From positions 1 to 64,000 of the IMG/VR virus record IMGVR_UViG_3300027749_000100: DNA of 64,000 nt; one strand, written 5' to 3'. The notes below the pieces were generated by a model, which saw nothing but the letters and a program-made list of their open reading frames with translations, searched no databases and was not told the DNA's origin. This document shows, one piece after another, positions 33,145 to 53,102 of the stretch (position 1 is the first letter of the stretch; each line of letters begins with the position of its first letter). This DNA is from a virus. The position numbers and the translations under genes were made by a program.

Positions 33145-35562
33145 TTATTTTTTATTTTTTTCTTCAAGTGCAAATATTCTGGATGTCAAATTTTCTATTT
33201 CTAATGATAATTCCTTGAACGCATTTACCAATGCCCACATGAGATCACTGGCGTTGATGTTGTAGATTTGCGTTTCTATTTCTTCGCCATTTTCTGATTT
33301 TTCCTTGTATGTATACGTTCCAACCATTTCGGGCCAAGAAGACAATATTTCCTGCGCAATTACTGAGACATGATCCTTGCCGTCATCTTTTGATCCAAAT
33401 TTTCCATTCAGGCGATACACGACTGGATTCAATTGCTTGATGGCACTTAGGCCTTTGACATAGGGATGAAGAACTGTCTTGATTCGAGAGTCGGAAGCGA
33501 TGGTCCATGTATCTGTGTCCGGCTTGGATGCAGAATCTGTATTAACAACAAGTGAAGAACATTGCATTATGCCGAACAAGCCCACGTTCCATATTTGTGT
33601 GGCATACACATTGTGACAAAAAACACCGTCTGCTATGTTGACCAGACATGCGTCTTGGTATGGGCCATTAGCAAAAGGAGTTATAGATGCAGAAACAGTT
33701 CCATCCCAACGAGCTCCAATCATCGAATCAATAGAAAATGTTCCAATGTTAAATGGTCCATAATCCTCTGATGGGTACAAATAATGTGATGCCGCATGAG
33801 GCTCCATGGTTAGTGTTTGATTGCTTGATCCATCAAATTTATTTAAAAGAGCATCCGTGGTGGCTATATTCATATAAAGTCCTCTGTCCCAAGGATAGAG
33901 TTCTGTTTCGCTGGCTGTGCCCATATAGTTAGTGGAAAATGGATAAGAAGTGATTCCTGAAAATGATGGAGGATCGGGTGGTGTTCCATCTGCTATGGCT
34001 GTAATTCTTCCGTATGTATCAACAGTGATGTTTGAGTTTACAAAAGAACCGGGATTTAAATATGACTGAGTATTATACATGAAAATATTGTTTGATCCAT
34101 AATTAAGAACGTATACGATGTTATTTAACATAATAATTGAAGTTGGATTGAGATCGGAATTTTGCGATTCAAGATATGTCAAATTTCCAAAAGTTAGATC
34201 AATAACAAATAAATCTACAAGCCCTGTTGAATTGGCAATAGTTTTACAAACAAACAAATGTGTTCCTGCAGAATTTACACAACTTGACGAAAAAGATTCT
34301 GAATAATTGGCGTTAAATGTGTGCAGTAACGAAAGAGAATAATAATTGTCATATATAAATGTTACAATTCGGTCAGTACACGTAGCGTAAAGAAAATAAC
34401 ATTCAGGATTATTTGTTGCAACAAACTCTAAATCTTGAAGAACTCCACCAGTTTCTACCGATGTAACATGTGTCAATTCTCCAGTTTCTGCATTAATAGC
34501 GTATTGGCGCAAATATCCATCTGAACATCCTACAAGAAGATTTTCATTAAATTTGTCAACAATCATTGTTGTTGGGGAAACATATGCCGCCAAACTATAT
34601 GCAAGAGTAAGCGTTCCATCTTCATTGATAAAATATGAATTTATGTAATCTCCACCAATGAAAAGAAATTTTGATTTATCCGTTTTTCTCAGCCATTCTG
34701 AAGCTGATGACAAAGAATCTACAGCAATAACAGTAGTGTTATTGCATGTTGATCCAATAGTATTATCAAAATAAGTTAATGTTCCAGAATAATCAGTATA
34801 ATAACTTGATATTCCGTTATTGATTGGAGTAAGAACATATACAACTTCCGTTTTAGATGTATTGGTTGTTTGAGCAACAACTACTGATTTTTGATTGTCA
34901 TTTAATACAAACGCCCCATTAGTCTGTTCTGACACAAGAGACAAATTTCCCGAAGATTGATCAATGGAGTAGGCGGCTAGTGTCATACCAGCCCTCACGT
35001 AAAGAACCATGTCTGCTGTACTATTATTTTGTTGTCCAGTCACCGTAAGAACCGTCATTGACCTTGGCCCTACTCCTCCATTTCCACTATTTGATCCAGT
35101 TAATGTGGAATAAGAAGTATTGAAAGTTAATTTTACATAGTTATAATTTGTTAGTGAAATATCATTCATTAACAATGTTCTTGGGGCAGCGCCACCATTC
35201 CAAAAACCAATAGTGTTTGTTGATTCATCTTGTATTTGCAAAGATGAATTAGAAGACAATTTATTAAACATTGATCCTAGCGCAATTGAAGATATTGTAG
35301 AATTTTGCAACTTATTATTTGTAATTGTCAAATTTTGAATTTGCTGATTGTATATTTTTCCAGACAATGTTCCTTGATTGTCAACAGTCTCGTTGTTTGT
35401 TGCCACAAGATATCCGGTCAAATCTGGAAGATAATGCGTAGCGGCTCCTGCAACAGCAGGAGCAATTAAATTGACATCTCCGGTGTAGTATCCTCCTAAT
35501 TGAAGGGAAAGATTTACACCAGAACATGCCAACGCCCGTGTTGCGCCTCCATAAAGCGGCAT
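33145..35562 (-). CDS. S74-chaperone tail fibre with degenerate beta-propeller insert
   Basis: This 805-residue protein follows the 391-residue fibre with no spacer. It shares with it the N-terminus (MP-YGG-T-A) and the C-terminal endosialidase-type chaperone (PF13884). That domain has ASDSRIKTVL with the Ser and Lys of the self-cleavage site, then LSAIKQLNPVVYRLNG, DHVSVIAQE, SWPEMVGTYTYKEK and a terminal coiled coil (FKELSLEIENLTSRIFALEEK). Between about residues 160 and 480 lies a string of propeller-like blades (LAAYSIDQSSGNLSLVS, LRQYAINAETGELTHVTS, NIVYVLNYGSNNIFMYN). These are the same fold as the YVTN propellers of neighbouring genes, but diverged. It should trimerise, cleave off the chaperone and present the propellers. 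It is a probable receptor-binding fibre. Confidence 0.85.
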   Translation of the reverse strand: MPLYGGATRALACSGVNLSLQLGGYYTGDVNLIAPAVAGAATHYLPDLTGYLVATNNETVDNQGTLSGKIYNQQIQNLTITNNKLQNSTISSIALGSMFNKLSSNSSLQIQDESTNTIGFWNGGAAPRTLLMNDISLTNYNYVKLTFNTSYSTLTGSNSGNGGVGPRSMTVLTVTGQQNNSTADMVLYVRAGMTLAAYSIDQSSGNLSLVSEQTNGAFVLNDNQKSVVVAQTTNTSKTEVVYVLTPINNGISSYYTDYSGTLTYFDNTIGSTCNNTTVIAVDSLSSASEWLRKTDKSKFLFIGGDYINSYFINEDGTLTLAYSLAAYVSPTTMIVDKFNENLLVGCSDGYLRQYAINAETGELTHVTSVETGGVLQDLEFVATNNPECYFLYATCTDRIVTFIYDNYYSLSLLHTFNANYSESFSSSCVNSAGTHLFVCKTIANSTGLVDLFVIDLTFGNLTYLESQNSDLNPTSIIMLNNIVYVLNYGSNNIFMYNTQSYLNPGSFVNSNITVDTYGRITAIADGTPPDPPSFSGITSYPFSTNYMGTASETELYPWDRGLYMNIATTDALLNKFDGSSNQTLTMEPHAASHYLYPSEDYGPFNIGTFSIDSMIGARWDGTVSASITPFANGPYQDACLVNIADGVFCHNVYATQIWNVGLFGIMQCSSLVVNTDSASKPDTDTWTIASDSRIKTVLHPYVKGLSAIKQLNPVVYRLNGKFGSKDDGKDHVSVIAQEILSSWPEMVGTYTYKEKSENGEEIETQIYNINASDLMWALVNAFKELSLEIENLTSRIFALEEKNKK

Positions 35563-36750: not shown

Positions 36751-39700
36751 CTATCCCACTTCGGTAGTTTCAATGACTGCCACCCAGCGAATTCGCGTGC
36801 TTGCTAATCCAGTTACAGCAATTTGCAAAGATCCAAACATCGATGTTTCTGCAACAACAGTAAACGAAACTTGCGAAAGCTGCGAATCAACAGCAACAGC
36901 AGTAACAGTAGGAGATCCAATAATGGTTGTTGTTCCATTTGTTGCTGTTTTTCTAATTGCTCCCGTAATTTCCCAATTTCCGCCAAATGATCCATAGGTT
37001 GTAGTTGAATTTGTTCCTATTGTTCCAGAAGAAGCAACTAATTGAATAGTAAATCTGTACGTACTATTATTAGGTAAAACAATATGGTTTGCTGAATCAA
37101 ATGTTCCCGTTCCATCTGCGGTCATATTAACTGCAGACGCATTTGTTGTAGTTGCGCGAAGAACATGCAACCCGAATTGCGCGTCGCCATTGGAAGCAAA
37201 TCGCCCAGCAGAATAAGCAAATTTTCCGTACAATTGCGCATTACCATACAGTCCTCCCGGAATAGCAGAGTAATCTCCAGAAGCTGCATTGCCCGAACCT
37301 CCGCTGATAACCGAAACTGATCCGCTAGATACTTGCAAAGATGCATTACGTATTGTTTGCCAATCTACTGAATTTGTTCCTCTCTTGTTTCCTCCTGTTG
37401 ATGAATTATCGGGAATGTTTCCAAGCAGCGATCCTGTTCCTTTTGGTCGTAAAACAAGATCAACATCAGTAGTTGATCCCGCTGCCGTCAAAGAATCCAC
37501 ATAAGTATAAGTATTAGGCGAAGATGTGCTTTCAGCAAAAGCAACCTGCGTGATTGATGTGCCTCCCGTTCCGTTTTCTGCAGCGATAATTCTTCCTTGC
37601 GCATCCACAGTAATATTTGCAGATGTGTAAGAACCTGCAGATACATCAGTGTTTGTCAAAGAAATAGTGACTGCAGAAGAGCCATTGAAACTGGTTCCTG
37701 AAAGTCCGCTACCTATAGTTAGAGCATTGGTAGTTGTGACCCCAGCTCCCGGTGTTGACCAGAAAAGTTCACCCGACCCATTGGTGCTAAGCACCTGTCC
37801 GCTTGCTCCGTCAGAAGGCAATACATATGTAGTTGATCCCGCAATGGCAGGAGCGACAAGACTCACTGCTCCTGATGTTGATCCGGAAATACTTAGTGTT
37901 CCCTTGACATCGAGAATGTCTCTGAATGTTCCACTATTTGCCGCAAAATTATTGATACGATAGGTTTGTACCGTAGTAGTGCCAAGACGATTCACCACAA
38001 AAGCAAACCTGCCAGTTGGGTCAACCGCAACACCATAAGGAGCTAACCCCGTTGCTGCCGTTCCGACCGAGGTCAATGCTCCGGTGGATTGATTGATGGT
38101 ATAGGCCTGCACCGTGGAGCTACTATAATTCGTCACAAAAGCAAATCTGCCAGTTGGGTCAACCGCAACACCATTAGGAGCTGACCCCGTTGCTGCTGTT
38201 CCAATCGAGGTCAATGCTCCGGTAGATTGATTGATGGTGAAGGCTTGTACCGTAGTGCTACCATAATTCGTCACAAAAGCAAACCTGCCAGTTGGGTCAA
38301 CCGCAACACCCTGAGGAGCTAACCCCGTTGCTGCCGTCCCTACCGAGGTCAATGCTCCGGTAGCTTGATTAATGGTGTAGGACTGAACTCCTGTTGCGGC
38401 GCTACCATAATTCACCACAAAAGCAAATCTGCCAGTTGGGTCAACCGCAACACCACAAGGATTTGTCCCCGTTGCTGCTGTTCCAATCGAGGTTAATGCT
38501 CCGGTAGATTGATTGATCGTATAGGCTTGCACGGTATTGCTAATGCTAGAATAATTCGTCACAAAAGCAAATCTGCCAGTTGGATCAACCGCAACAGCAT
38601 AGGGATAATTCCCCGTTGCTACCGCACCTACCGAAGTCAATGCTCCGGTAGATTGATTGATGGTATAGGCTTGTACGGTGGCGCTACTATAATTCGGGAC
38701 AAAAACAAACCTGCCAGTGGGGTCAACCGCAACACCGTAGGGACCTGATCCCGTTGCTGCCGTGCCTACCGAGGTCAATGCTCCGGTAGATTGATTGATT
38801 GTATAGGCTTGCACCGTGGCGCTACTACCATTTGTCACAAAAGCAAACCTGCCAGTTGGGTCAACCGCAACACCAGAAGGAGCTGACCCCGTTGCTGCCG
38901 TCCCTACCGAGGTCAATGCCCCTGTTCCTCCGTGAAAAGTCGGTGGAGGAAGAAGATTATTACTCGTCACCGCCCCATACGTAATCGACGATCCCGAGAT
39001 GGGATTTCCGACAATATATTGAGTTGATCTCAATTGCCCTTGAATATCTGCTCCTGCTTGTATCGATTGTGTTCTTCCCGCTCCTACCACAAGAGGCGCG
39101 GCAAACGTCTGTGTGGCTGTCCATGCATGTGCAATTGCTAGCGCATCCGCCGCAGTAGTAATTCTTCCCTGTGCATCTACTGTAATACTTGCAACAGGGT
39201 ATGAACCTGCTGTTACTGCAGTGTTTGCCAATGCAATTGTTACTGCAGCAGAACCATTGAAACTTGTTCCCGAAAGTCCCGTTCCAATGGTCAGCGCATT
39301 GGGAGTGTTAACACTAATGTCTCCCGATCCATTGAACGCAACACCGTTGATGTTTCGAGAAGTGGTAAGCGTTGCAGCACTTGTTGCCGTGGAAGCATTT
39401 CCGGAAAGTGCTCCATAAAACGTTGTCGCTTCCATGTCTCCAAGTGTGCCGGAATATACTTCAGAAACATTTGTTCCGTCAGGGATAAATGCAAATCTTT
39501 GATTATTTCGCCGAAATCCAAAAAATCCTTTTTTTGCGGTAGAATTATACCACTGAAACTCAACACCTCTGTCTTTTGCATCATTGGAAATGAGTGTCGC
39601 GCCATCGACACCTCCGCCAAGGCTGATGATTGGATCCTTCAAAACTGTCGTTGTTGCATTAACTGTAATTGTAGTTCCATTTACCGTAAAATTTCCACCA

Positions 39701-40395
39701 ACAGTCACGTCGGCAAATGTTTGCGCAGCAGTCCAAGTATTTGAATTGCCTAAATTTAAGGTAATGGTGTTTGCTTCTGATCCATTAAACGTTCCAGTTG
39801 TTCCAGAAAGTCCTGATCCAATGGTGAGTGCATTTGGAACACCACTTCCGTTTGAAGCGGACGTAATCCTTCCTTGCGCATCGACAGTGATGTTTGCTGT
39901 AGAATACGAACCTGCTGTTACTGCAGTATTTGCCAATGCAATTGTTACTGCAGCAGAACCATTGAAACTTGTTCCCGAAAGTCCCGTTCCAATGGTTAGA
40001 GAATTTGTTGTGGTGCTTGTTGCGCTGCCGCTTGATGCAGCAGTGATTCGTCCTTGAGCATCGACAGTCAGGGCAGCATTCGTATAGGAACCCGGAGTAA
40101 CTGCAGTGGAAGCAATTCCAATGGTTACATCTCCGGTGGCTGCATTGACAGAAATTCCCGTTCCAGCAGCAACTGAGGTGACCGGCTTCTTCCAAGTTCC
40201 GGGCGTTCCTCCCGCAATGCATATGTGAAGTACGCCTGAGCGATCAATGACAAAATCACCAACAGAAAACGTTCCCGTCGTCGGGGCACCCGAAGCAGTT
40301 GCTCCCACATATCGAGACAGCTCTTTTGATCCGCTTAACCCTGTAGCGGTCAAAGTGGACGTTCCGGAAAATGAACTCAGTTTCGCTACTGGCAT
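36751..40395 (-). CDS. Tail fibre with a seven-bladed YVTN-type propeller inside
   Basis: This 1,214-residue protein starts one base inside the stop codon of the preceding gene (TAATG) with GGAGA upstream. Residues 1-440 are fibre shaft: repeated NALTIGTGLSGTSFNGSAAVTIALANTAVTAGSY and ITVDAQGRITAAS units, plus a DRGVEFQWYNSTAKKGFFGFRRNNQRF block known from fibres of large T4-like marine phages. Residues about 490-812 form exactly seven blades with consensus VAVDPTGRFAFVTN-x-TVQAYTINQSTGALTSVG. The shaft motif then resumes. The protein ends in a domain closing with RWVAVIETTEVG, also found in three other fibre proteins here. The propeller is inserted between shaft parts rather than at the tip. 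It is probably a receptor-binding or glycan-binding module. Confidence 0.85.
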   Translation of the reverse strand: MPVAKLSSFSGTSTLTATGLSGSKELSRYVGATASGAPTTGTFSVGDFVIDRSGVLHICIAGGTPGTWKKPVTSVAAGTGISVNAATGDVTIGIASTAVTPGSYTNAALTVDAQGRITAASSGSATSTTTNSLTIGTGLSGTSFNGSAAVTIALANTAVTAGSYSTANITVDAQGRITSASNGSGVPNALTIGSGLSGTTGTFNGSEANTITLNLGNSNTWTAAQTFADVTVGGNFTVNGTTITVNATTTVLKDPIISLGGGVDGATLISNDAKDRGVEFQWYNSTAKKGFFGFRRNNQRFAFIPDGTNVSEVYSGTLGDMEATTFYGALSGNASTATSAATLTTSRNINGVAFNGSGDISVNTPNALTIGTGLSGTSFNGSAAVTIALANTAVTAGSYPVASITVDAQGRITTAADALAIAHAWTATQTFAAPLVVGAGRTQSIQAGADIQGQLRSTQYIVGNPISGSSITYGAVTSNNLLPPPTFHGGTGALTSVGTAATGSAPSGVAVDPTGRFAFVTNGSSATVQAYTINQSTGALTSVGTAATGSGPYGVAVDPTGRFVFVPNYSSATVQAYTINQSTGALTSVGAVATGNYPYAVAVDPTGRFAFVTNYSSISNTVQAYTINQSTGALTSIGTAATGTNPCGVAVDPTGRFAFVVNYGSAATGVQSYTINQATGALTSVGTAATGLAPQGVAVDPTGRFAFVTNYGSTTVQAFTINQSTGALTSIGTAATGSAPNGVAVDPTGRFAFVTNYSSSTVQAYTINQSTGALTSVGTAATGLAPYGVAVDPTGRFAFVVNRLGTTTVQTYRINNFAANSGTFRDILDVKGTLSISGSTSGAVSLVAPAIAGSTTYVLPSDGASGQVLSTNGSGELFWSTPGAGVTTTNALTIGSGLSGTSFNGSSAVTISLTNTDVSAGSYTSANITVDAQGRIIAAENGTGGTSITQVAFAESTSSPNTYTYVDSLTAAGSTTDVDLVLRPKGTGSLLGNIPDNSSTGGNKRGTNSVDWQTIRNASLQVSSGSVSVISGGSGNAASGDYSAIPGGLYGNAQLYGKFAYSAGRFASNGDAQFGLHVLRATTTNASAVNMTADGTGTFDSANHIVLPNNSTYRFTIQLVASSGTIGTNSTTTYGSFGGNWEITGAIRKTATNGTTTIIGSPTVTAVAVDSQLSQVSFTVVAETSMFGSLQIAVTGLASTRIRWVAVIETTEVG
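37955..38930 (-). repeat. Seven tandem propeller-blade repeats (subfamily VAVDPTGRFAFV)
   Basis: Seven direct repeats of about 138 bp share GTTGGGTCAACCGCAACACC and the GAGGTCAATGCTCCGGT core. They encode YVTN/lactonase-type blades. The subfamily uses VAVDPTGRF rather than VACDPTGKF, so it is homogenised within this gene but distinct from the arrays at 41-47 kb. Confidence 0.9.
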
Positions 40396-40733
40396 TATGT
40401 AATCTCCACTCCAAACACACTAACAGCCAAAGTATTTGCACTGGCCGAAAAAAGCAAATATTTATTTGTCGCATCCAATGTCAATCCGACCGTGATGAAC
40501 GATGTATCATTTGCGGACACTGTTCCATCATAGATGATGTATCCGTTGATATCTCCGGGATAGACATTGGCAGTGGAAACACAAAGGCGATACGTGACGT
40601 TGGATGATCCCGTGTTGCACACGGACATGGTGCTTACCACCGCAGCAGTTGTGGCACAGGTATACAATACTTGCGCGGTCGCAGGTGTTGAATTGGAAAT
40701 AATTGAATTCAATCTTTTATATACTTGCGCCAC
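40395..40733 (-). CDS. Small jelly-roll-like virion protein (GTG start)
   Basis: This 112-residue protein starts at GTG 40733, about nine bases after AGGGAG; an ATG two bases upstream is out of frame. The sequence (AQVLYTCATTAAVVSTMSVCNTG; YIIYDGTVSANDTSFITVGLTLDATNKYLLFSASANTLAVSVFGVEI) matches a family of short structural proteins common beside tail fibres in large marine-type phages. It resembles the 8027-8422 protein. Its stop overlaps the next start (TAATG), so the two are coupled. It is likely a virion decoration or fibre-associated protein. Confidence 0.7.
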   Translation of the reverse strand: MAQVYKRLNSIISNSTPATAQVLYTCATTAAVVSTMSVCNTGSSNVTYRLCVSTANVYPGDINGYIIYDGTVSANDTSFITVGLTLDATNKYLLFSASANTLAVSVFGVEIT

Positions 40734-40815
40734 ATTATTTCTCCCTTGATATTTGACTTATTGTATCAAATGATGCAGTATTGTTTTGCGTTGCTTTTTG
40801 TCGCGTACAAAGAGA

Positions 40816-40992
40816 TCAAGAGGGGCGTTGAATTTTCTTGCTTGCCCATTTTTCAATTTCCACGCTGGTGCCGACATACCAGCCGTCATCAAGTTGAACC
40901 ATCCGGTGGTTTACCTCAATGTCGCTCACATCCTCATCGGTCAATGGGCCATAGATATACGGATCGTCAAATCGGTCAAAAATGGAAATCAT
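40816..40992 (-). CDS. Very small acidic protein
   Basis: This 58-residue protein was placed by an excellent SD (GGAGG) six bases before the ATG at 40992; a TTG further upstream would overlap the previous gene. Sequence features are MISIFDRFDDPYIYGPLTDEDVSDIEV and a Trp-containing WYVGTSVEIEKWASKK tail. It is acidic, without a signal peptide or membrane segment. It lies between the seven-blade propeller gene and the small jelly-roll gene. I do not recognise it. Strong SD and tight spacing argue that it is real. Confidence 0.6.
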   Translation of the reverse strand: MISIFDRFDDPYIYGPLTDEDVSDIEVNHRMVQLDDGWYVGTSVEIEKWASKKIQRPS

Positions 40993-41006
40993 GATGTCCT
41001 CCAGAC

Positions 41007-42224
41007 TTATCCCCAAAAGGATTTTGTTTCAAGCCAATAATATAATTTTGTAATAAAAGTATACGGTCTTATGGTGGCGTTTGCAATGGTTTTTATTGCG
41101 CCGCTAATTGGAGGGGAAATTGGTCGATAGGTACTGAGTGCGTCGAAATTGAAATTGCGAAATCCCACACGAGTGTTTCGAGTGATGACAGGAAAATTGA
41201 ATGCTTTTGATTGAGATGTTTGATAATAGACTATATTTGGATAATAAGAAAAAACAGTGCTCGAACCAGTATTTGCCACATACACAAATTTCCCTGTGGG
41301 ATCACAGGCAACGCCTTGGGGATTAGTTCCCGTTGCCACCGCTCCCACCGAAGTCAATGCTCCGGTGATTGCATTGATCGTGTAGGCCTGAACGGTGCTT
41401 GAAGTAAAATTCGCCACATACACAAATTTCCCCGTGGGATCACAGGCAACAATGTAGGGATTAGTTCCCGTTGCCGTTGTTCCCATCGAGGTCAATGCTC
41501 CGGTACTTGCATTGATCGTGTAGGCCGAAACGGTGTCTGAACTATAATTCGTCACATACACAAATTTCCCCGTGGGATCACAAGCAACGCCGTAGGGATT
41601 AGTTCCCGTTGCCGTTGTTCCCACCGAGGTCAATGCTCCGGTGATTGCATTGATCGTGTAGGCCTGAACGGTGTTTGGATTAATATTCGCCACATACACA
41701 AATTTCCCCGTGGGATCACAGGCAACACCGTTGGGACCAGCCCCCGTTGCCGCTGTTCCCACCGAGGTCAATGCTCCGGTTACTTGATTGATCGTGTAGG
41801 CCTGAACGGTGTTTCCTCCGAGTCCATTGTAATTATTCGCCACATAGACAAATTTCCCCGAGGGATCACAGGCAACACCCCAAGGAAATGCTCCCGTTGC
41901 GGTTGTTCCCACCGAGGTCAATGCTCCGGTACTTGCATTGATCGTGTAGGCTTGAACGGTGCTTGAACCAGCATTCGTCACATACACGAATTTCCCTGTG
42001 GGATCACAGGCGACAAAGTAGGGACTAGTTCCCGTTGCTGCCGTCCCGACCGAGGTCAATGCTCCGGTACTTGCATTGATCGTGTAGGCCTGAACGGTAC
42101 TTGAACTCAGATTCGTCACATACACAAATTTTCCTGTGGGATCACAGGCAACGCCGATGGGAATACTCCCGGTCATTGCTGTTCCCAAATTGCTGAAATT
42201 GTGTGAAAATACAATTCCTGCCAT
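41007..42224 (-). CDS. Seven-bladed YVTN beta-propeller protein
   Basis: This 405-residue protein consists of a short N-terminus (MAGIVFSHNFSNLGTAMTG), exactly seven blades (about residues 20-320) with the consensus VACDPTGKFVYV-N-x-TVQAYTIN-x-TGALTSVG-ATG, and an 80-residue Tyr/Arg-rich tail (TRNTRVGFRNFNFDALSTYRPISPP). Blades belong to the YVTN/lactonase (TIGR02276/PF10282) class, which forms closed seven-bladed discs. No lactonase catalytic histidine or arginine pattern was seen, so binding rather than catalysis is likely. Blades are almost identical in DNA to those of the next gene upstream, pointing to recent duplication. It has no fibre shaft or chaperone. It may ride on a fibre tip or be a secreted or soluble binder; only its place among fibre genes suggests a virion role. 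Confidence 0.8.
   Translation of the reverse strand: MAGIVFSHNFSNLGTAMTGSIPIGVACDPTGKFVYVTNLSSSTVQAYTINASTGALTSVGTAATGTSPYFVACDPTGKFVYVTNAGSSTVQAYTINASTGALTSVGTTATGAFPWGVACDPSGKFVYVANNYNGLGGNTVQAYTINQVTGALTSVGTAATGAGPNGVACDPTGKFVYVANINPNTVQAYTINAITGALTSVGTTATGTNPYGVACDPTGKFVYVTNYSSDTVSAYTINASTGALTSMGTTATGTNPYIVACDPTGKFVYVANFTSSTVQAYTINAITGALTSVGAVATGTNPQGVACDPTGKFVYVANTGSSTVFSYYPNIVYYQTSQSKAFNFPVITRNTRVGFRNFNFDALSTYRPISPPISGAIKTIANATIRPYTFITKLYYWLETKSFWG
41260..42190 (-). repeat. Seven tandem propeller-blade repeats (VACDPTGKFVYV)
   Basis: There are seven 138-bp direct repeats, one of 150 bp because of a four-codon insertion in a loop. They contain the conserved CCCCGTGGGATCACAGGCAA and ACCGAGGTCAATGCTCCGGT segments. 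The third blade carries NNYNGLGG in the variable loop. Confidence 0.92.
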
Positions 42225-42270
42225 ACTTACACTTCAGCAGACATATTTTTTGGCGCAAAAAAATTATGCA

Positions 42271-45200
42271 TCATGTTCCCCAATACGTCACATTTCTTGG
42301 AAGCATGGTTGTTATTTTTTTATTTACTTGATAGGGGGTAATACGGGAAGTATTTATTTTTGTGTCCGGATTTATTGATGGCTGAGAAACCTGATAGTCA
42401 AATTGCGTCAAGGCCAATCCGGCATATCCTGAAGTCGCTGCCGCCAAATATCTATTTCTGTTTGAAATAGTTGCTAATTGCAAAGTAGAATCGGAAGAAT
42501 ATGTATTAATATATGTCAATGCACCGGTTGATTGATTGATAGAATATACTTCTATTGCAGATCCATTATTGTAATAAAAAACTTCCGAACGTGAATCAAC
42601 TGCAGAATAATATGTAAAGCCTGTTGATCCATAATTTCCAACAAGTGTCAACGCCCCAGTTGACTGGTTGATAGAGTATGAAAATATGGAAGATGGTAAA
42701 GCAGGGCCAATAAAACAGGCGTATAAAAATCTATTGTATGTATCAACTACTAAATCAACACATTGCTCAGTAGAGGCAGGAGATATTGCCGATCCAACTG
42801 CAGTCAAAACTCCTGTTGTTTGATTTATGGAATATGCTTGCAATATTCCCGCAATGCCGTTATTACTTCCTCCAACATACAGGAATTTTCCTGTGTTATC
42901 GCTTTTTGTAACATATGGCCGTGTCATTGTTGCAGGAAGAGTGGTTGTACCTAAAAACGTAAACCCTATATAAATTGTGTACGTTTGAACAGTGTTATCA
43001 CCATAATTCACCACATAGACAAATTTTCCCGTGGGATCGCAAGCAACGTGGTAGGAAGATGTCCCCGCTGTCGCTGTTCCCACCGAGGTCAATGCTCCGG
43101 TACTTGCATTGATCGTGTAAGCTTGAACGGTATTTGAGGCCACATTCGCCACATACACAAATTTCCCTGTGGGATCACAGGCAACGCCGTAGGGACAAGT
43201 TCCTGTTGCCGCTGTTCCCACCGAGGTCAATGCTCCGGTGATTGCATTGATCGTGTAGGCCTGAACGGTGTATGGACCAAAATTCGCCACATACACAAAT
43301 TTCCCCGTGGGATCACAGGCAACGCCTTGGGGATTATTTCCCGTTGCCACCGCTCCCACCGAAGTCAATGCTCCGGTGATTGCATTGATCGTGTAAGCTT
43401 GAACGGTGTTGTCAATAGCATTCGTCACATAGACAAATTTTCCCGTGGGATCACAGGCAACGCTTTGGGGACCACTTCCCGTTGCCGCTGTTCCCACCGA
43501 GGTCAATGCTCCGGTACTTGCATTGATCGTGTAGGCTTGAACGGTGTTTCCGCCCACTCCATTGAAAGCATTCACCACAAACACGAACTTTCCCGTGGGA
43601 TCACAAGCAACGGCGTAGGGAGTTGTCCCCGTTGCTACCGCTCCCACCGAGGTTAATGCTCCGGTACTTGCATTGATCGTGTAGGCTTGCACGGTGTTTG
43701 AACCAAGATTCACCACATAGACAAACTTTCCCGTGGGATCACAAGCAACGCCGTAGGGATTTGTCCCCGTTGCTGCCGTTCCCACCGAAGTCAATGCTCC
43801 GGTAGTTGCATTGATTGTGTAGGCTTGAACGGTATTTGTACCAGTATTCGTCACATACACAAACTTTCCCGTGGGATCGCAGGCAATGAAGTAAGGAGCA
43901 GTCCCCGTCCCCGTCGCCACCGTTCCCATAGAGTTCAATGCTCCAGTATCGTCTTTTACATCAAACCTTTTTAATTGATTTACGTCACTTTCTAGAGCAT
44001 AAAAAAATCTTCCATATGATTCAAAAGTTATACTTGCCTTACTACTAGCGGCTGTAGTAATTGTGTAGGCTTGAACGGTGGCTGAACTCTGATTCGCCAC
44101 ATACACAAATCTGCCGGTTGGATCAGACGCAACACCCCAAGGATTTGATCCCGTTGCCGCTGATCCCATCAAAGTCAATGCTCCGGTACTTGCATTGATC
44201 GTGTAGGCTCGAACGGTACCTGAAGTATAATTCGTCACATAGACTTTCCCCGTGGAGTCACAAGCAACGGCGAAGGGATTAGTTCCCGTTGCCACCGCTC
44301 CCACCGAAGTCAATGCTCCGGTACTTGCATTGATCGTGTAGGCTTGAACCGTGTTGTCACCAGAATGCGCCACATAGACAAACTTCCCCGTAGGATCACA
44401 GGCAACGCTTTGGGGACCACTTCCCGTTGCCGCTGTTCCCACCGAGGTCAATGCTCCGGTAGTTTGATTGATTGTGTAGGCCTGAACGGTGCCCGATGCA
44501 CCGATAGAATTCGTCACATACACAAATTTCCCTGTGGGATCACAGGCAACACCGTAGGGGCCAGCTCCCGTTGCCGCTGTTCCCACCGAGGTCAATGCTC
44601 CGGTACTTGCATTGATCGTGTAGGCTTGAACGGTCCATGGAGTATAATTCGCCACATACACAAATTTCCCCGTGGGATCACAGGCAACGCCTTGGGGATT
44701 ATTTCCCGTTGCTGCCGTCCCGACCGAGGTCAATGCTCCGGTACTTGCATTGATTGTGTAGGCTTGAACGGTGGCTGAACCAGTATTCGTCACGTACACG
44801 AATTTTCCCGTGGGATCACAGGCAACGCCTTGAGGACTTGTCCCCGTTGTCACCGCCCCCACCGAGGTTAATGCTCCGGTAGTTGCATTGATCGTGTAGG
44901 CATGAACGATACTTGAACCCTGATTCGTCACATAGACAAATTTCCCCGTGGGGTCACAGGCAACGCCGGTGGGATAAGTTTCCGTTGCCGCTGTGCCCAC
45001 CGAGGTCAATGCTTCAGACAATAACGACGCAGATAGCACTCTTTGCCTTTCAATAAATTCGCCAGTGGTTATGCTGTAAGAAAATCTAATCCAATAAAAA
45101 CCAGTCTCTGACTGTAATTTGACAAAAAGTTCATTTTTTTGCGGATGAAACACAGCGCTATATATGGTATTGCCGCTAGAAACTGTATGTTCTCCTAGTT

Positions 45201-47547
45201 TTATTAAATAATCATTATTTATTTTGTATAATACGCCTTTGTCCGCGCCTCCAACATACATTAAAGTCCTTGTTTTGTCAACAGCGACGCATTGTGAACC
45301 AGATTGTGCAATACGACTGTATCCCGAAACATAATTTCCAACTTCACCAACATCTTTATATCTATAATAATATGTAGATCGTATAAAACTTTTGGAAGAA
45401 CTGGTAAATGGATACGAGTATGCGTTGTTTTTTATTTTACTTAAGGACGACCGCGGCAAGGAAAAGGATTTGGAAGAACTGGTAGAAATATTGTTTAGGT
45501 AATTTGTCGAAAGAGGAAACAATTCGCAAAGGCGATATGAAAAATTATTAGAAATTTTATTTTTTGAGGATACAGAATAATAAGAAATAATGGGAGTAAA
45601 ATAACGCTGAACGGTGTTTGAGCTATTATTCGCCACATAGACAAACTTCCCCGTGGGATCACAGGCAACGCCGTAGGGACTAGTTCCCGTTGCTGCCGTC
45701 CCGACCGAGGTCAATGCTCCGGTACTTGCATTGATCGTATAGGCCTGAACGGTGTCTGCATTAGCATTCGTCACATACACAAACTTCCCCGTGGGATCAC
45801 AGGCAACACCACGAGGAGCACTCCCCGTTGCCGCTGTTCCCACCGAGGTCAATGCTCCGGTGATTGCATTGATTGTGTAGGCCTGAACGGTGTTTGAAAC
45901 ATAATTCGTCACATACACAAACTTCCCCGTGGGATCACAGGCAACACCACGAGGAGCACTCCCCGTTGCCACCGCTCCCACCGAGGTCAATGCTCCGGTG
46001 ATTGCATTGATCGTGTAGGCCTCAACGTCGAATGAAGTAGCAATCGTCACATACAAAAACTTCCCCGTGGGGTCACAGGCCACTTCATAGGGAGTTGTCC
46101 CCGTTGCTTTTGTTCCCACCGAGGTTAATGCTCCGGTACTTGCATTGATTGTGTAATACTGAACGGTGTTTGAAACTCGATTCAACACATACACAAATTT
46201 CCCTGTGGGGTCACAGGCCACTCCATAGGGATAAGTTCCCGTTGACACTGCTCCCACCGAAGTCAATGCGCCGGTACTTGCATTGATCGTGTAGGCCTCA
46301 ACGGTGCCAAAACTAAGGTTGGTCACATAGACAAATTTCCCCGTGGGATCACAGGCAACACCGGAGGGAGCTGATCCCGTTGCGGTTGTTCCCACCGAGG
46401 TCAATGCGCCGGTACTTGCATTGATTGTGTAGGCCGAAACGCTGGCTGAGCTATTATTCACCACATAGACAAATTTTCCCGTGGGATCGCAAGCAACGTT
46501 GTAGGGAGTTGTCCCCGTTGCCGCTGTTCCCACCGAGGTCAATGCTCCGGTACTTGCATTGATCGTGTACGCCTGAACGGTGTTTCCTCCGGCTCCAGTG
46601 AAACTATTCGCCACAAAAACAAATTTCCCCGTGGGATCACAGGCAACGCCTTGAGGACTTGTCCCCGTTGCCACCGCCCCCACCGAGGTTAATGCTCCGG
46701 TAGTTGCATTGATCGTGTAGGCCTGAACGGTGTTTGAATACTGATTCGCCACATAAACGAATTTCCCCGTGGGATCACAGGCAACACCCACAGGGTATGT
46801 CCCCGTTGCCACCGCTCCCGCCGAAGTCAATGCTCCGGTACTTGCATTGATTGTGTAGGCCTGAACGGTGGTTGAATTATAATTCGTCACATACACGAAT
46901 TTCCCCGTGGGATCACAGGCAACGTTTTGGGGAAAACTCCCCGTTGCTGCCGTCCCGACCGAGGTCAATGCTCCGGTGATTGCATTGATTGTGTAGGCCT
47001 GAACGGTGTCTGATTGATTATTCGTCACATACACAAATTTCCCCGTGGGATCACAGGCAACGCCTGTAGGGTTATTTCCCGTTGCCGCTGTTCCCACCGA
47101 GGTCAATGCTCCGGTGATTGCATTGATTGTGTAGGCTTGAACGGTGTTTGATAAAACATTCACCACATAGACAAACTTCCCCGTGGGATCACAGGCAACA
47201 CCGAGGGCACCTGTTCCCGCTGCCGTTGTTCCCATCGAGGTCAATGCTCCGGTAACACTGTTGATCGTGTAGGCCGAAACCGTATATGAACTGCCATTCA
47301 CCACATAGACAAACTTCCCCGTGGGATCACAAGCAACGCCTCGGGGATTAGTTCCCGTTGCCGTTGTTCCCACCGAGGTCAATGCTCCGGTAGTTGCATT
47401 GATCGTGTAGGCCTGAACGGTGTTTGAAACATAATTCGTCACATACACAAACTTCCCCGTGGGATCACAGGCAACACCCCAAGGATTTGTTCCCGCGCTT
47501 ACAGGATTAACATTGGGAAAATTATATCCAGCATCAATTTGCGCCAT
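42271..47547 (-). CDS. Giant multi-propeller adhesin with 28 near-identical YVTN blades
   Basis: This 1,758-residue protein has AAGG upstream. Residues about 15-650 hold 14 contiguous blades (consensus VACDPTGKFVYVTN-x-TVQAYTIN-x-TGALTSVG-ATG-x-G). A 190-residue Ser/Tyr-rich linker (NISTSSSKSFSLPRSSLSK) with two diverged blades follows. A second run of 14 blades (about residues 845-1530) is split 7+7 by a 45-residue insert (FESYGRFFYALESDVNQLKRF). Four diverged blades follow (LQAYSINQTTGVLTAVG, FSYSINQSTGALTLVG), then a short basic tail. The counts fit four closed seven-bladed propellers. One blade (CDSTGKVYV) has lost the Phe codon. No signal peptide, shaft or chaperone was seen. Variation is confined to two loops per blade. 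The protein is inferred to be a multivalent binding protein of the tail or capsid surface. Confidence 0.82.
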   Translation of the reverse strand: MAQIDAGYNFPNVNPVSAGTNPWGVACDPTGKFVYVTNYVSNTVQAYTINATTGALTSVGTTATGTNPRGVACDPTGKFVYVVNGSSYTVSAYTINSVTGALTSMGTTAAGTGALGVACDPTGKFVYVVNVLSNTVQAYTINAITGALTSVGTAATGNNPTGVACDPTGKFVYVTNNQSDTVQAYTINAITGALTSVGTAATGSFPQNVACDPTGKFVYVTNYNSTTVQAYTINASTGALTSAGAVATGTYPVGVACDPTGKFVYVANQYSNTVQAYTINATTGALTSVGAVATGTSPQGVACDPTGKFVFVANSFTGAGGNTVQAYTINASTGALTSVGTAATGTTPYNVACDPTGKFVYVVNNSSASVSAYTINASTGALTSVGTTATGSAPSGVACDPTGKFVYVTNLSFGTVEAYTINASTGALTSVGAVSTGTYPYGVACDPTGKFVYVLNRVSNTVQYYTINASTGALTSVGTKATGTTPYEVACDPTGKFLYVTIATSFDVEAYTINAITGALTSVGAVATGSAPRGVACDPTGKFVYVTNYVSNTVQAYTINAITGALTSVGTAATGSAPRGVACDPTGKFVYVTNANADTVQAYTINASTGALTSVGTAATGTSPYGVACDPTGKFVYVANNSSNTVQRYFTPIISYYSVSSKNKISNNFSYRLCELFPLSTNYLNNISTSSSKSFSLPRSSLSKIKNNAYSYPFTSSSKSFIRSTYYYRYKDVGEVGNYVSGYSRIAQSGSQCVAVDKTRTLMYVGGADKGVLYKINNDYLIKLGEHTVSSGNTIYSAVFHPQKNELFVKLQSETGFYWIRFSYSITTGEFIERQRVLSASLLSEALTSVGTAATETYPTGVACDPTGKFVYVTNQGSSIVHAYTINATTGALTSVGAVTTGTSPQGVACDPTGKFVYVTNTGSATVQAYTINASTGALTSVGTAATGNNPQGVACDPTGKFVYVANYTPWTVQAYTINASTGALTSVGTAATGAGPYGVACDPTGKFVYVTNSIGASGTVQAYTINQTTGALTSVGTAATGSGPQSVACDPTGKFVYVAHSGDNTVQAYTINASTGALTSVGAVATGTNPFAVACDSTGKVYVTNYTSGTVRAYTINASTGALTLMGSAATGSNPWGVASDPTGRFVYVANQSSATVQAYTITTAASSKASITFESYGRFFYALESDVNQLKRFDVKDDTGALNSMGTVATGTGTAPYFIACDPTGKFVYVTNTGTNTVQAYTINATTGALTSVGTAATGTNPYGVACDPTGKFVYVVNLGSNTVQAYTINASTGALTSVGAVATGTTPYAVACDPTGKFVFVVNAFNGVGGNTVQAYTINASTGALTSVGTAATGSGPQSVACDPTGKFVYVTNAIDNTVQAYTINAITGALTSVGAVATGNNPQGVACDPTGKFVYVANFGPYTVQAYTINAITGALTSVGTAATGTCPYGVACDPTGKFVYVANVASNTVQAYTINASTGALTSVGTATAGTSSYHVACDPTGKFVYVVNYGDNTVQTYTIYIGFTFLGTTTLPATMTRPYVTKSDNTGKFLYVGGSNNGIAGILQAYSINQTTGVLTAVGSAISPASTEQCVDLVVDTYNRFLYACFIGPALPSSIFSYSINQSTGALTLVGNYGSTGFTYYSAVDSRSEVFYYNNGSAIEVYSINQSTGALTYINTYSSDSTLQLATISNRNRYLAAATSGYAGLALTQFDYQVSQPSINPDTKINTSRITPYQVNKKITTMLPRNVTYWGT
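42965..45020 (-). repeat. Second run of 14 propeller-blade repeats
   Basis: Fourteen direct repeats of about 138 bp are interrupted between the seventh and eighth by unrelated sequence near 43,930-44,065. Conserved cores are the same as in the 41260-42190 array. Confidence 0.9.
45600..47505 (-). repeat. First run of 14 propeller-blade repeats
   Basis: Fourteen uninterrupted direct repeats of 138 bp (a few of 150 bp from loop insertions) are close to identical outside two short variable segments per unit. The run is long enough to support unequal crossing over. Confidence 0.92.
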
Positions 47548-49916: not shown

Positions 49917-52900
49917 TTATGGCTGAGTATAGTATAGCGTAATGGATGCATCTGAGGCTCCATTTGATGACACTGTGTCAATGTAGATGGCGTCACTTGA
50001 TGTAGATGCAGTGGTGATTGTAACAATGGAAGAAACGTATTGATTTTGCGCAATGGTCAACGTGCCAATTGTCGTGGCATTTTCGCGAAGAGTAAAAACA
50101 AGCGCTCCTGTGGTTGGCGCAACGGAGCAGGAAGCATACGCGGTGGTGATGATAATGTTTGCGGGAGGAGACCATCTCGGACTTGTCTGTACAAGCACTG
50201 GTCCGATGATATTGTAGGTCTTTGAATATATTGTTGATCCGCCACTTCCTCCCGTGCCGTTCGATGCGGCAGTGATTCTTCCTTGGGCATCCACGGTGAT
50301 ATTGGCACTGGTATATGAAGCGGGTGTCACCGCGGTGTTTGCCAAGGCTACGGTGACCGCAGCAGAACCGTCAAAACTGGTTCCACTCAATCCCGTTCCA
50401 ATGGTCAAAGCATTGGTGGTTGTACCTCCTCCACCTCCGCCTCCCGTGCCGTTCGATGCTGCGGTAATGCGACCTTTCGAGTCAACAGTAATATTTGCAT
50501 TGGTATACGAAGCAGGTGTCACCGCAGTATTTGCCAGTGTCAGGGTAATCGCCGTCGTGCCCGAACCAGAGGCGTCTCCGCTCACGGTAATCGATTGGTT
50601 TCCTGTCAGGTACGTCGAGGTATCCAGCGACCATGTATCAGCAGCCGTCTTCTTCAGAAGACCCGATGTCCCAGACAGACCGGCAATCGCCGTCAGGTCA
50701 GCGTCGAGAGGCTGGGCATCGGTAATTCCGTAACCAGTCAGGGTGGTTGGATTTGTTCCGGCAGTGATCCGGCCCTTCGTATCTACCGTGACGCTTCGGT
50801 ATGTACTGGCGCTGACTCCCGTTGTAGCCAGTGTCAAAGTAATCGCGGTCGTGCCTGAACCCGCTGCATCTCCGCTCACGGTAATCGACTGGTTTGCCGT
50901 CAGATATGTCGAGGTATCCAGCGACCATGTATCAGCAGCCGTCTTCTTCAGAAGACCCGCTGTTCCGACAAGACCGGCAATCGCCGTCAGGTCTGCATCC
51001 AGAGGCTGGGCATCGGTAATTCCGTAACCTGAAAGGGTCGTAGCCGTAGGCCCAGTCGTGCCGTTCGATGCTGCGGTAATGCGTCCTTTCGAGTCAACAG
51101 TAATATTCGCATTGGTATATGAGGCGGGTGTCACCGCAGTATTTGCCAGTGTCAAGGTAATCGCGGTTGTTCCCGAACCAGAAGCGTCTCCGGTAACCGA
51201 GACGGACTGATTTCCTGTCAGATACGTCGAGGTATCCAGCGACCATGTATCAGCAGCCGTCTTCTTCAGAAGACCCGATGTCCCAGACAAACCGGCAATC
51301 GCCGTCAGGTCAGCGTCGAGAGGCTGGGCATCGGTAATTCCGTAACCTGAAAGGGTCGTAGCCGTAGGCCCAGTCGTGCCGTTCGATGCTGCGGTAATGC
51401 GACCTTTCGAGTCAACAGTAATATTCGCATTGGTATATGAGGCGGGTGTCACCGCAGTATTTGCCAGTGTCAAGGTAATCGCGGTTGTTCCCGAACCAGA
51501 AGCGTCTCCGGTAACCGAGACGGACTGATTTCCTGTCAGATACGTCGAGGTATCCAGCGACCATGTATCAGCAGCCGTCTTCTTCAGAAGACCCGATGTC
51601 CCAGACAAACCGGCAATCGCCGTCAGGTCAGCGTCGAGAGGCTGGGCATCGGTAATTCCGTAACCAGTCAGGGTGGTCGGGTTTGTCCCGGCAGTGACCC
51701 TGCCCTTGGTATCAACGGTAACGCTTCGGTAGGTACTAGCACTGACCCCCGTTGTTGCCAATGTCAAGGTAATCGCGGTTGTTCCCGAACCAGAAGCGTC
51801 TCCGCTCACGGTAATGGACTGGTTTGTTCCGTTTGACCAACTTAGCACTCCGCTTGAACTGGAAGACAAAACCTGACCTGTTATTGGCGCAGAGGAAGGC
51901 AATGTATAAACCATACTTTGTGTAATAGTGTCGGGACGCTTTATAGAAATAAAATTACTCGAAGAAATAATGTCTTTAAATCTCAGCATTCCATCTGTTT
52001 GCAGCGTTCCGTATTGATCAATAAAAATATTTGGATCTGGATCATACGATTTAAAAGCAACTGAAATTCCTTGAGAAGTTGAAAAAAATACGGTGTCAGA
52101 TATATTATCTCCAACTCCTATTATAATTCCAGAGAGAGGATCAACAGTGAATATTGTTTCATCTCGCACGTTTCCGCTGGCAATAGATGTTCCGGAGTAA
52201 AGTACATTGCTCCAATATGCGGGAAGAAAAAATTTGAATGCATCTCTATTTTCCACGCCATCGACAAAAGTTTGCTTAGCATTCCAGTTGTTATACATGC
52301 TGGTATTCAATGACAAAGTGACAGCATCTGATCCATCAAAAGTATTTTTTGAACCACTAAGTCCATTGCCAAAAATTAACGGATTTGAATTGGCAGTTGA
52401 AGAAGCACTAATGGTTATATTTCCTGAATTGTTAGCAATTGAAACATTTGCTCCCGCTGTCAATTGAGCTAATTGAAACCCTGTTCCTGTGCCGATAAGC
52501 AACTCCCCGTTGCTTGGCGTTGCAGTTTGTCCTGTGCCGCCATAATTAACATTAATTGCAGAAGCAAGCCATGAACCAGAAACAATATTTCCTAGCGCAG
52601 AATTGCCTGACCCTACATATAACGCATAATTATTCGTCGCGCCAGTTGGTGAATCGACATATATTCCATAAGAATTTACTGAGTTTGTTATTGAAGTTTC
52701 TACAAATAATCCATACGCATTTGTCAGTGAAAGATTTGATAGCGTGCCTGTTTTTTTGGGCACGCCAAAAATATGCTGCGTTGCTGCATTAGTTATGGTC
52801 ATTCCAGAAACTAATGCGTTAAAATTGCTAGACTTGTAACTGTTTGCATGAAAATCTGAAACAGTCAACATAGGTAATAATGTTGTAATTGCGGCTGTGG

Positions 52901-53102
52901 ATGCCGCAACATTTATGCCATTTACATACATTGTGGACGCAGAAACACTGAGAGACGTAGCAGACAAAGTATTTTTTGGAGTAGATTGAATAGTTAATCC
53001 ATAGTTTACTTCCGAAGAAGTTCCTACAGCTAGTCCTCCTGTAACGACTTGACTACCAACAAGATCGAACCTGTTGGTAGCCGTAAAACTTGTCTGAGGC
53101 AT
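49917..53102 (-). CDS. Tail fibre with 106-residue shaft repeats
   Basis: This 1,061-residue protein has AAGGA upstream. The N-terminal half includes NAYGLFVETSITNSVNSYGIYVDSPTG and NYGGTGQTATPSNGELLIGTG, standard fibre motifs. From about residue 420 it has several copies of a unit with TTLSGYGITDAQPLDADLTAIAGL, GTSGLLKKTAADTWSLDTSTYLTGNQS, TGDASGSGTTAITLTLANTAVTPASY and ITVDSKGRITAASNG. These are repeats of trimeric phage fibres. The last 100 residues (PRWSPPANIIITTAYASCSVAPTTGALVFTLREN) read as a compact beta tip, probably the receptor-binding end. No S74 chaperone is present. Confidence 0.85.
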   Translation of the reverse strand: MPQTSFTATNRFDLVGSQVVTGGLAVGTSSEVNYGLTIQSTPKNTLSATSLSVSASTMYVNGINVAASTAAITTLLPMLTVSDFHANSYKSSNFNALVSGMTITNAATQHIFGVPKKTGTLSNLSLTNAYGLFVETSITNSVNSYGIYVDSPTGATNNYALYVGSGNSALGNIVSGSWLASAINVNYGGTGQTATPSNGELLIGTGTGFQLAQLTAGANVSIANNSGNITISASSTANSNPLIFGNGLSGSKNTFDGSDAVTLSLNTSMYNNWNAKQTFVDGVENRDAFKFFLPAYWSNVLYSGTSIASGNVRDETIFTVDPLSGIIIGVGDNISDTVFFSTSQGISVAFKSYDPDPNIFIDQYGTLQTDGMLRFKDIISSSNFISIKRPDTITQSMVYTLPSSAPITGQVLSSSSSGVLSWSNGTNQSITVSGDASGSGTTAITLTLATTGVSASTYRSVTVDTKGRVTAGTNPTTLTGYGITDAQPLDADLTAIAGLSGTSGLLKKTAADTWSLDTSTYLTGNQSVSVTGDASGSGTTAITLTLANTAVTPASYTNANITVDSKGRITAASNGTTGPTATTLSGYGITDAQPLDADLTAIAGLSGTSGLLKKTAADTWSLDTSTYLTGNQSVSVTGDASGSGTTAITLTLANTAVTPASYTNANITVDSKGRITAASNGTTGPTATTLSGYGITDAQPLDADLTAIAGLVGTAGLLKKTAADTWSLDTSTYLTANQSITVSGDAAGSGTTAITLTLATTGVSASTYRSVTVDTKGRITAGTNPTTLTGYGITDAQPLDADLTAIAGLSGTSGLLKKTAADTWSLDTSTYLTGNQSITVSGDASGSGTTAITLTLANTAVTPASYTNANITVDSKGRITAASNGTGGGGGGGTTTNALTIGTGLSGTSFDGSAAVTVALANTAVTPASYTSANITVDAQGRITAASNGTGGSGGSTIYSKTYNIIGPVLVQTSPRWSPPANIIITTAYASCSVAPTTGALVFTLRENATTIGTLTIAQNQYVSSIVTITTASTSSDAIYIDTVSSNGASDASITLYYTQP
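50440..51840 (-). repeat. Direct repeats of about 306-318 bp in a fibre gene
   Basis: The segment GTTCGATGCTGCGGTAATGC recurs at about 50,451, 51,063 and 51,381 with its flanks. The 51,063/51,381 pair shows a 318-bp (106-codon) period and near identity. Related shorter units lie between. This is a recent internal duplication. Confidence 0.8.

Follow-up and report, generated by a model that had tools for sequence, protein, structure and literature searches.

Multiples of seven in the beta-propeller arrays of a phage, and a plausible nested ring in its giant protein

The closest described systems are repeat propellers whose blades are highly alike. In the accessible account of WRAP from Nostoc punctiforme (PDB 2YMU), a WD40 protein, 14 contiguous, near-identical blades form two seven-bladed rings (PMC6805158). 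The Podospora WD40 sensors HET-D and HET-E, as given in the available text, have alike repeats that undergo concerted evolution, with a few hypervariable positions under diversifying selection; cryptic blades bring their total to two rings of seven, and in HET-E one ring is made of four canonical and three cryptic blades (PMC12222747). The survey by Pereira and Lupas includes lactonase-like families and viruses in its set and reports, in its accessible portion, that amplified propellers mostly keep the blade number of their lineage; that portion also records many larger and smaller blade counts and describes no counting system (PMC9218822). In contractile injection systems, fibres carry propeller lectins and lactonase domains, which the available part of the source proposes as binding modules or enzymes (PMC12923769). 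A literature search, mostly without subscription papers, returned nothing on nested propellers or multi-disc propeller arrays in phages.

Blade arrays in three adjacent phage genes

The window, meaning the whole stretch analysed, covers 64,000 of the 70,469 bases of the linear virus record IMGVR_UViG_3300027749_000100. Its blade arrays sit in three adjacent minus-strand genes, here called A (36751-40395), B (41007-42224) and C (42271-47547), which lie between the major head protein and tail sheath genes. Genes for S74-chaperone fibre proteins adjoin them, and baseplate genes are found farther along. Deposited phage records gave distant matches alone, in 13 records and each below 60% identity. 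A sister contig, IMGVR_UViG_3300027708_000077, is base-identical over 20,338 bp spanning every A/B/C array; because it carries identical arrays, there is no obvious sign that they are an assembly artefact, with the proviso that the two assemblies may not be independent. In the neighbouring gene at 49917-53102, a 318-bp repeat array is one unit shorter in the sister contig (L011/L019). In this single contig comparison, the neighbour's array changes length and the A/B/C arrays do not.

The blade period is 46 residues (138 bp) in all three proteins. Counting canonical blades by the conserved DPTGK turn gives 7 in A, 7 in B, and 14, then 7, then 7 in C, in agreement with the 7, 7, 14 and 14 reported by an earlier sequence-only reading of this DNA. 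That reading also divided the second run of C into 7+7 around a 45-residue insert. The division holds, but the insert is not a spacer; it scores as a blade. The features are as follows.

37954..38919, minus strand: canonical seven-blade disc of A, inserted in a fibre-like protein and made up of a closing strand, six full blades and strands a-c of a seventh
41235..42200, minus strand: canonical seven-blade disc of B, followed by an 80-residue tail; matches PF10282 and PDB 1l0q
45595..47526, minus strand: seamless run of 14 canonical blades in C; by the counts, probably two seven-blade discs
45313..45594, minus strand: linker of C after blade 14, without blade signal
45178..45312, minus strand: degenerate blade L1 of C; predicted strands a, b, c and d, pLDDT ~65
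45022..45177, minus strand: degenerate blade L2 of C; predicted strands a, b, c and d
44059..45009, minus strand: canonical disc of C, blades 15-21, from the closing strand to strand c of blade 21
43939..44058, minus strand: the "45-residue insert" of C, a degenerate blade scoring 23.5 bits, with strands b and c in the model
42973..43938, minus strand: canonical disc of C, blades 22-28, seven-bladed in the model
42343..42972, minus strand: closing strand and four degenerate C-terminal blades of C (C1-C4), of which C1-C3 are found by profile

The discs of A, B and C are best explained as beta-propellers of the lactonase/YVTN kind, with seven four-stranded blades per ring. Against PF10282 (Lactonase, 7-bladed; curated cut-off 21.7 bits), A scores 134.5, B 256.5 (5.2e-76) and C 718.2 bits. 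Against TIGR02276 (YVTN; cut-off 27.85), B scores 58.2 (5.8e-16) and C 137.3, and A is not listed. The closest solved sequence is PDB 1L0Q, an archaeal surface-layer protein, which B matches at 3.4e-27, and a BFVD structure search returned phage proteins carrying 7-bladed lactonase or WD40/YVTN annotations. With the NCBIfam 6-phosphogluconolactonase model (cut-off 370), C reaches 491.5 over 14 stretches, and A (136.8) and B (130.3) stay below the cut-off; a catalytic role for C is putative.

By eye, residues 325-405 of B resemble residues 652-740 of C, both being serine-, lysine- and aromatic-rich tails that follow discs. The profile finds no blade signal in either tail, and the C linker at 650-740 gives no profile match above its own shuffles.

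Blade number among relatives

Relatives were taken from viral contigs and genomes, and their blades were counted with an iterated profile; the genome loci are the best 80 of 494 confirmed matching stretches. The tallies cover uncut ORFs; those truncated at the end of a contig or locus were only listed. The census left out sister or already represented contigs (L011, L021, L026, L035-L038, L042, L060, L019, L032, L033, L034), ORFs with fewer than three blade matches (such as L069) and exact array duplicates, and capsid-only loci yielded no propeller rows. L018, in which three and four blades flank an insert, was entered as 7.

Among uncut viral proteins, the blade total is a multiple of seven in 23 of 24 (7 in 17, 14 in two, 21 in two and 28 in two). 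Three of the 24 are A, B and C themselves, and the exception is C, in which the iterated profile sees 32 blades. The relatives on viral contigs conform in 21 of 21 cases, a figure that retains the near-duplicates L015/L016 and L065/L066 and does not represent 21 independent events. Non-multiples of seven as the norm in related phages, which the sequence-only reading had named as evidence that would tell against it, were looked for and not seen; each of these 21 proteins carries 7, 14, 21 or 28. Uncut bacterial ORFs, drawn from the best 80 of 494 stretches, total 7 (51) or 14 (19) in 70 of 79 cases. The nine off the rule total 13 (three), 9, 8, 6, 5, 4 and 3, and these may reflect frameshifts or missed blades.

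Multiples of seven are a family rule, ordinary as such and not peculiar to this phage. The need to close a ring, as a filter on blade number, is consistent with the data, and the blade number of seven would be held because a ring must close. The earlier proposal that rings close at seven is supported by the 21 of 21 uncut viral relatives, together with the modelling of discs 15-21 and 22-28 as seven-bladed.

Spacing between blades offers a further view of how longer runs divide. In contiguous 14-blade bacterial proteins, again from the best 80 of 494 stretches, blades 7 and 8 are 52-57 residues apart in 19 of 20, mostly 53, against a usual spacing of 46-48; the one protein without the long spacing is L083. 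This long spacing is the mark of a seam between two rings. The 14-blade run of C has no such seam, its single long spacing being 50 residues at blade 7, which is explained by a longer b-c loop. By analogy with WRAP (2YMU) and the 20 bacterial 14-blade proteins, the run would consist of two seven-blade discs.

Most phage discs share one boundary pattern: of 35 runs, 32 have strand a in the first blade and 23 lack the last strand d. Most bacterial discs (L071-L150, from the best 80 of 494 stretches) run from strand b through to strand d, with an a-like stretch after it. The phage boundary (d to c) and the bacterial boundary are circular permutations of closure. Each phage disc would begin with a lone strand d, continue through abcd blades and stop at strand c of blade seven; with this start and end, the first strand would complete the last blade.

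Degenerate blades and a possible nested ring in C

Outside its canonical discs, C carries further blades that have diverged. A degenerate-blade profile was built without any sequence from the 64,000-nt window, with 200 shuffles as control. The 45-residue insert scores 23.5 bits as a blade over model positions 3-41 (shuffle maximum 9.1), and C1, C2 and C3 score 35.9, 31.1 and 22.3 bits (shuffle maximum 7.1); the insert is a degraded blade. This profile did not detect the linker blades L1 and L2 (1.7 bits) or C4. Altogether, 32 of the 35 blades of C are found by profile, two (L1 and L2) by predicted strands only and one (C4) by eye only. The sequence-only reading had listed two extra degenerate blades in the linker and four at the C-terminus and judged that they did not fit neatly. 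The six blades are kept in the count and the misfit can be resolved: with the insert, the degenerate blades total 2 + 1 + 4 = 7. The counts of that reading were right and its rule is ordinary, while its loose end, the degenerate blades, plausibly points to a nested protein of five rings.

In this nested arrangement, the 35 blades of C would form five rings: two from the 14-blade run, two more in discs 15-21 and 22-28, and a diverged fifth. The diverged ring would be composed of L1, L2, the insert and C1-C4, and would act as a host inside which discs 15-21 and 22-28 are nested. We consider such a five-ring C plausible. Disc 15-21 opens with an extra strand d (aa 847) directly after the strand d of L2 itself, and blade 21 stops at strand c (aa 1163) with no strand d; this unit, from strand d to strand c, matches the disc of A and most phage relatives. 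When aa 847-1163 and 1204-1525 are removed, the distances between degenerate anchors are 44, 58, 52, 52, 49 and 44 residues. Once joined, the degenerate pieces align with a canonical disc at 33% identity across both joins (4e-25, one-on-one blastp). A relative with an empty host ring was sought and none was found, and the degenerate ends of C were matched in the sister contig only.

The same blades could also be read as a plain tandem of three consecutive mixed rings (L1, L2 and 15-19; 20, 21, the insert and 22-25; 26-28 and C1-C4), which also makes a blade total of 21. Mosaic rings of canonical and cryptic blades have been modelled in Podospora HET-E, according to the accessible text (PMC12222747), and the spacing around disc 22-28 taken alone (48 and 46) is regular and suits a plain tandem equally well. 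Around disc 15-21, however, such a tandem places the anchors 64 residues apart from L2 to blade 15 and 34 apart from blade 21 to the insert, which indicates one displaced strand d around this disc; the extra strand d at its start and the missing one at its end weigh against a tandem as well. AlphaFold2 likewise puts 15-21 and 22-28 in separate seven-bladed rings, with an alignment that covers mainly those discs. Consecutive mixed rings are, in our judgement, unlikely.

The AlphaFold2 target was C residues 735-1758, modelled with alignment A4 (34 rows, leaving out L079, which has unread residues). Nearly all of A4's coverage falls on discs 15-21 and 22-28, and several single discs were divided by MAFFT between the two sites; because of this coverage, the modelled disc boundaries are partly built in and not independent. 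With A4, the mean pLDDT is 77.6 and pTM 0.53, and without an alignment the same target collapsed (pLDDT 34, pTM 0.31). Model residues 113-430 and 470-790 each follow the order strand d, six times abcd, then abc, mostly with pLDDT above 90; by block, pLDDT is ~86-98 for disc 15-21 and ~82-98 for disc 22-28. In this model both discs are seven-bladed rings; structure prediction of each run was a check that the earlier reading had proposed. Disc 15-21 matches 7BIG, the designed WRAP-T, with Z 42.2 and rmsd 1.3 over 278 residues, and disc 22-28 matches 3OW8 with Z 39.7 and rmsd 1.7 over 286 residues. The structure match to 1L0Q has Z 39.4, and 2YMU aligns across both C discs with rmsd 9.0.

For the degenerate parts, the model gives a graded picture. 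L1 and L2 are complete abcd blades (pLDDT ~65), although almost no alignment row covers them. C1 and C2 are modelled as abcd, C3 as bcd and the insert as b and c, with the insert's apparent strand d serving disc 22-28; C4 has no strand. The pLDDT of the parts assigned to the host ring is ~40-70. Those low values, the lack of modelled strands in C4 and the profile's failure to detect L1, L2 and C4 would suit another explanation, in which the canonical discs alone are rings (7, 7, 2x7, 7 and 7) and the degenerate blades form no ring, being either leftovers in decay or partly folded linkers; the accessible portion of PMC9218822 records disrupted, quickly diverging propeller fragments. The open frame, the kept strand patterns, a blade number of seven and the spacing regained after disc excision all argue against leftovers, and we rate that explanation as rather doubtful.

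Two diverged propellers elsewhere deserve mention. L041:2867-7417 encodes a three-disc phage protein with a degenerate middle disc (6-27 bits per blade) between better-kept discs, and this middle disc is perhaps an intermediate of the same decay. Within the window, 33928-35112 lies in the protein at 33145-35562, upstream of its S74 chaperone, and appears to be a very diverged propeller with seven blades by eye. Its profile matches score 16.0, 20.4 and 8.8 bits (shuffle maximum 10.2), it scores 42.7 bits to disc 15-21, and relatives of this ring were found in the sister contig only.

Probable blade exchange, variable loops and related systems

B and C share one blade pool, with a fourfold-site identity of 0.73 and a mean DNA likeness of ~79% between blades. 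A groups with a different lineage, at 0.34-0.36 to B/C and 0.68 to L014. The sequence-only reading had taken whole discs as the unit of duplication and suggested a blade phylogeny to separate discs from single blades. Exchange between blades makes a blade tree uninformative, and register, segment and linkage tests were used in its place. Across the four C discs, same-position and different-position blades are equally alike (0.777 vs 0.776, p=0.45), and adding B to C brings out no positional memory (p=0.20). Nor does any stretch of 2-7 consecutive blades stand out as a copy of another (p 0.59-0.87). With linkage short as well, the tests lend no support to disc duplication in this phage.

The relatives present a weak positional memory over all seven positions (L13+L14 p=0.0005, L12 p=0.0015, L17 p=0.014, L13 p=0.03, L14 p=0.06), and disc-plus-spacer cassettes recur in L012-L014, where discs occur behind a conserved spacer; the flanking cassette sequence of the A disc also precedes discs in these loci. 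Both observations favour duplication of whole seven-blade discs at the DNA level. Little or none of the memory is left once the end positions are dropped and positions 2-6 alone are compared (L13+L14 p=0.03, L12 0.05, L17 0.26, L13 0.60, L14 0.46). The likeness of spacers and discs also runs in opposite ways: between L14.3 and L14.4, likeness is 0.86 for the spacers and 0.61 for same-position blades, whereas for L12.3 and A the spacers are 0.59 and the blades 0.81 alike. Spacer and disc histories are decoupled in L012-L014. Together with the absence of positional memory and segmental duplicates in B/C, this makes whole discs quite improbable as the duplication unit, although old disc duplications would leave no trace either where exchange has erased blade identity.

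Linkage was tested against permutation (100 shuffles) and an orthologous control, L15/L16. At polymorphic sites of the 35 B/C blades, it falls from 0.073 at 1-5 bp to 0.062 at 6-11 bp (0.031 expected), and beyond 12 bp it is 0.034-0.038. The 48-72 bp bin of B+C stands at 0.037 vs 0.032 and the 24-48 bp bin of L13+L14 at 0.031 vs 0.026, each with 0/100 shuffles as high. Beyond ~24 bp, B/C linkage comes close to the shuffled level without quite reaching it. In the control, linkage is 0.20-0.31 across the whole blade vs 0.08-0.09. Recurrent mutation in an old, star-like array could also bring sites near linkage equilibrium, but the short-range linkage opposes it as the sole cause, and it is less likely than erasure of blade identity by within-blade exchange. 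Very frequent exchange would have homogenised the blades; its simplest form, non-reciprocal gene conversion, leaves the count unaltered. Since count-keeping crossing-over would preserve position, gene conversion without a change of blade number is the simpler reading. That C is a propeller within a propeller, an old ring holding two young canonical discs in its loops, and that the B/C blades are one freely exchanging pool with a hypervariable face, in which only the count is inherited, is a serious possibility that we put forward tentatively.

Variation is concentrated in eight loop codons per blade, which lie in the d-a and b-c turns between strands; these columns were picked because they vary in the window set. 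The B/C loops differ at codon positions 1 and 2 in 48-60% of blade pairs, and fourfold sites elsewhere differ in 23%. Identical columns in L13+L14 give 51-60% vs 33%, a partial and not fully independent replicate. In an antiparallel four-strand blade, the d-a and b-c turns lie on one face. Loop variation on one face suggests that the B/C discs may be virion adhesins with a diversified ligand-binding face, gripping host cells; the putative receptor-binding role of the array proteins is based on gene position beside capsid and sheath genes and S74 fibre proteins.

A diversity-generating retroelement might also have written this variability, as several variable codons keep their third base (NNT/NNC) while the first two bases vary: at four loop columns, the third base is T in 27/30, C in 28/35, T in 28/35 and T in 26/35. 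Other loop columns, however, change the third base, and the ACG/GCG/GTG variation is not given by adenine-specific mutagenesis. The 70,469-base record, possibly a fragment, contains no RVT_1 match with E up to 10. As the source of these loops, a retroelement is very unlikely on present evidence. The adhesin reading forms part of the whole explanation, of five rings, blade exchange and a diversified binding face, which draws on one 70-kb contig and which we regard as on balance probable.

If true, this explanation would make ring closure a counter that fixes blade number while blades freely shuffle, and the keeping of number in amplified repeat propellers would become directly testable. It would also describe a retroelement-free route to broad, quickly changing phage adhesion surfaces and, in C, a nested architecture that repeat counting alone misreads.

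With the lactonase/YVTN propellers (PF10282, TIGR02276, 1L0Q), the phage discs have in common the sequence family, seven blades and the predicted fold. Unlike these relatives, the phage blades are highly alike within a protein, several discs occur per protein, and nesting is proposed; phage rings also begin and end at other strands than the bacterial lactonase/YVTN rings found here. WRAP and C both have 14 contiguous blades, and the ring split suggested for the run in C follows the precedent of WRAP, yet the B/C blades are less alike than those of WRAP. WRAP belongs to the WD40 family, and the proposed degenerate ring and the concentrated loop variability are features of the phage that the accessible account of WRAP does not describe.

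HET-D/HET-E and the phage arrays share, as far as the available text on the former goes, alike repeats, hypervariable positions and degenerate or cryptic blades that make up sevens, and the concerted evolution and hypervariable surface positions of HET-E-like sensors are present in these phage blades. HET-D and HET-E differ in being fungal immune receptors of the WD40 family, in which, by the same text, cryptic blades finish a mixed ring and repeat number varies between alleles. In C the degenerate blades would instead form a separate host ring, and the model puts canonical blades 15-21 and 22-28 in their own rings, with boundaries partly built in. Nested rings, as proposed for C, are not mentioned in the accessible portion of Pereira and Lupas (PMC9218822). 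The propellers of contractile-injection-system fibres (PMC12923769, in its available part) are not multi-disc arrays of near-identical blades.
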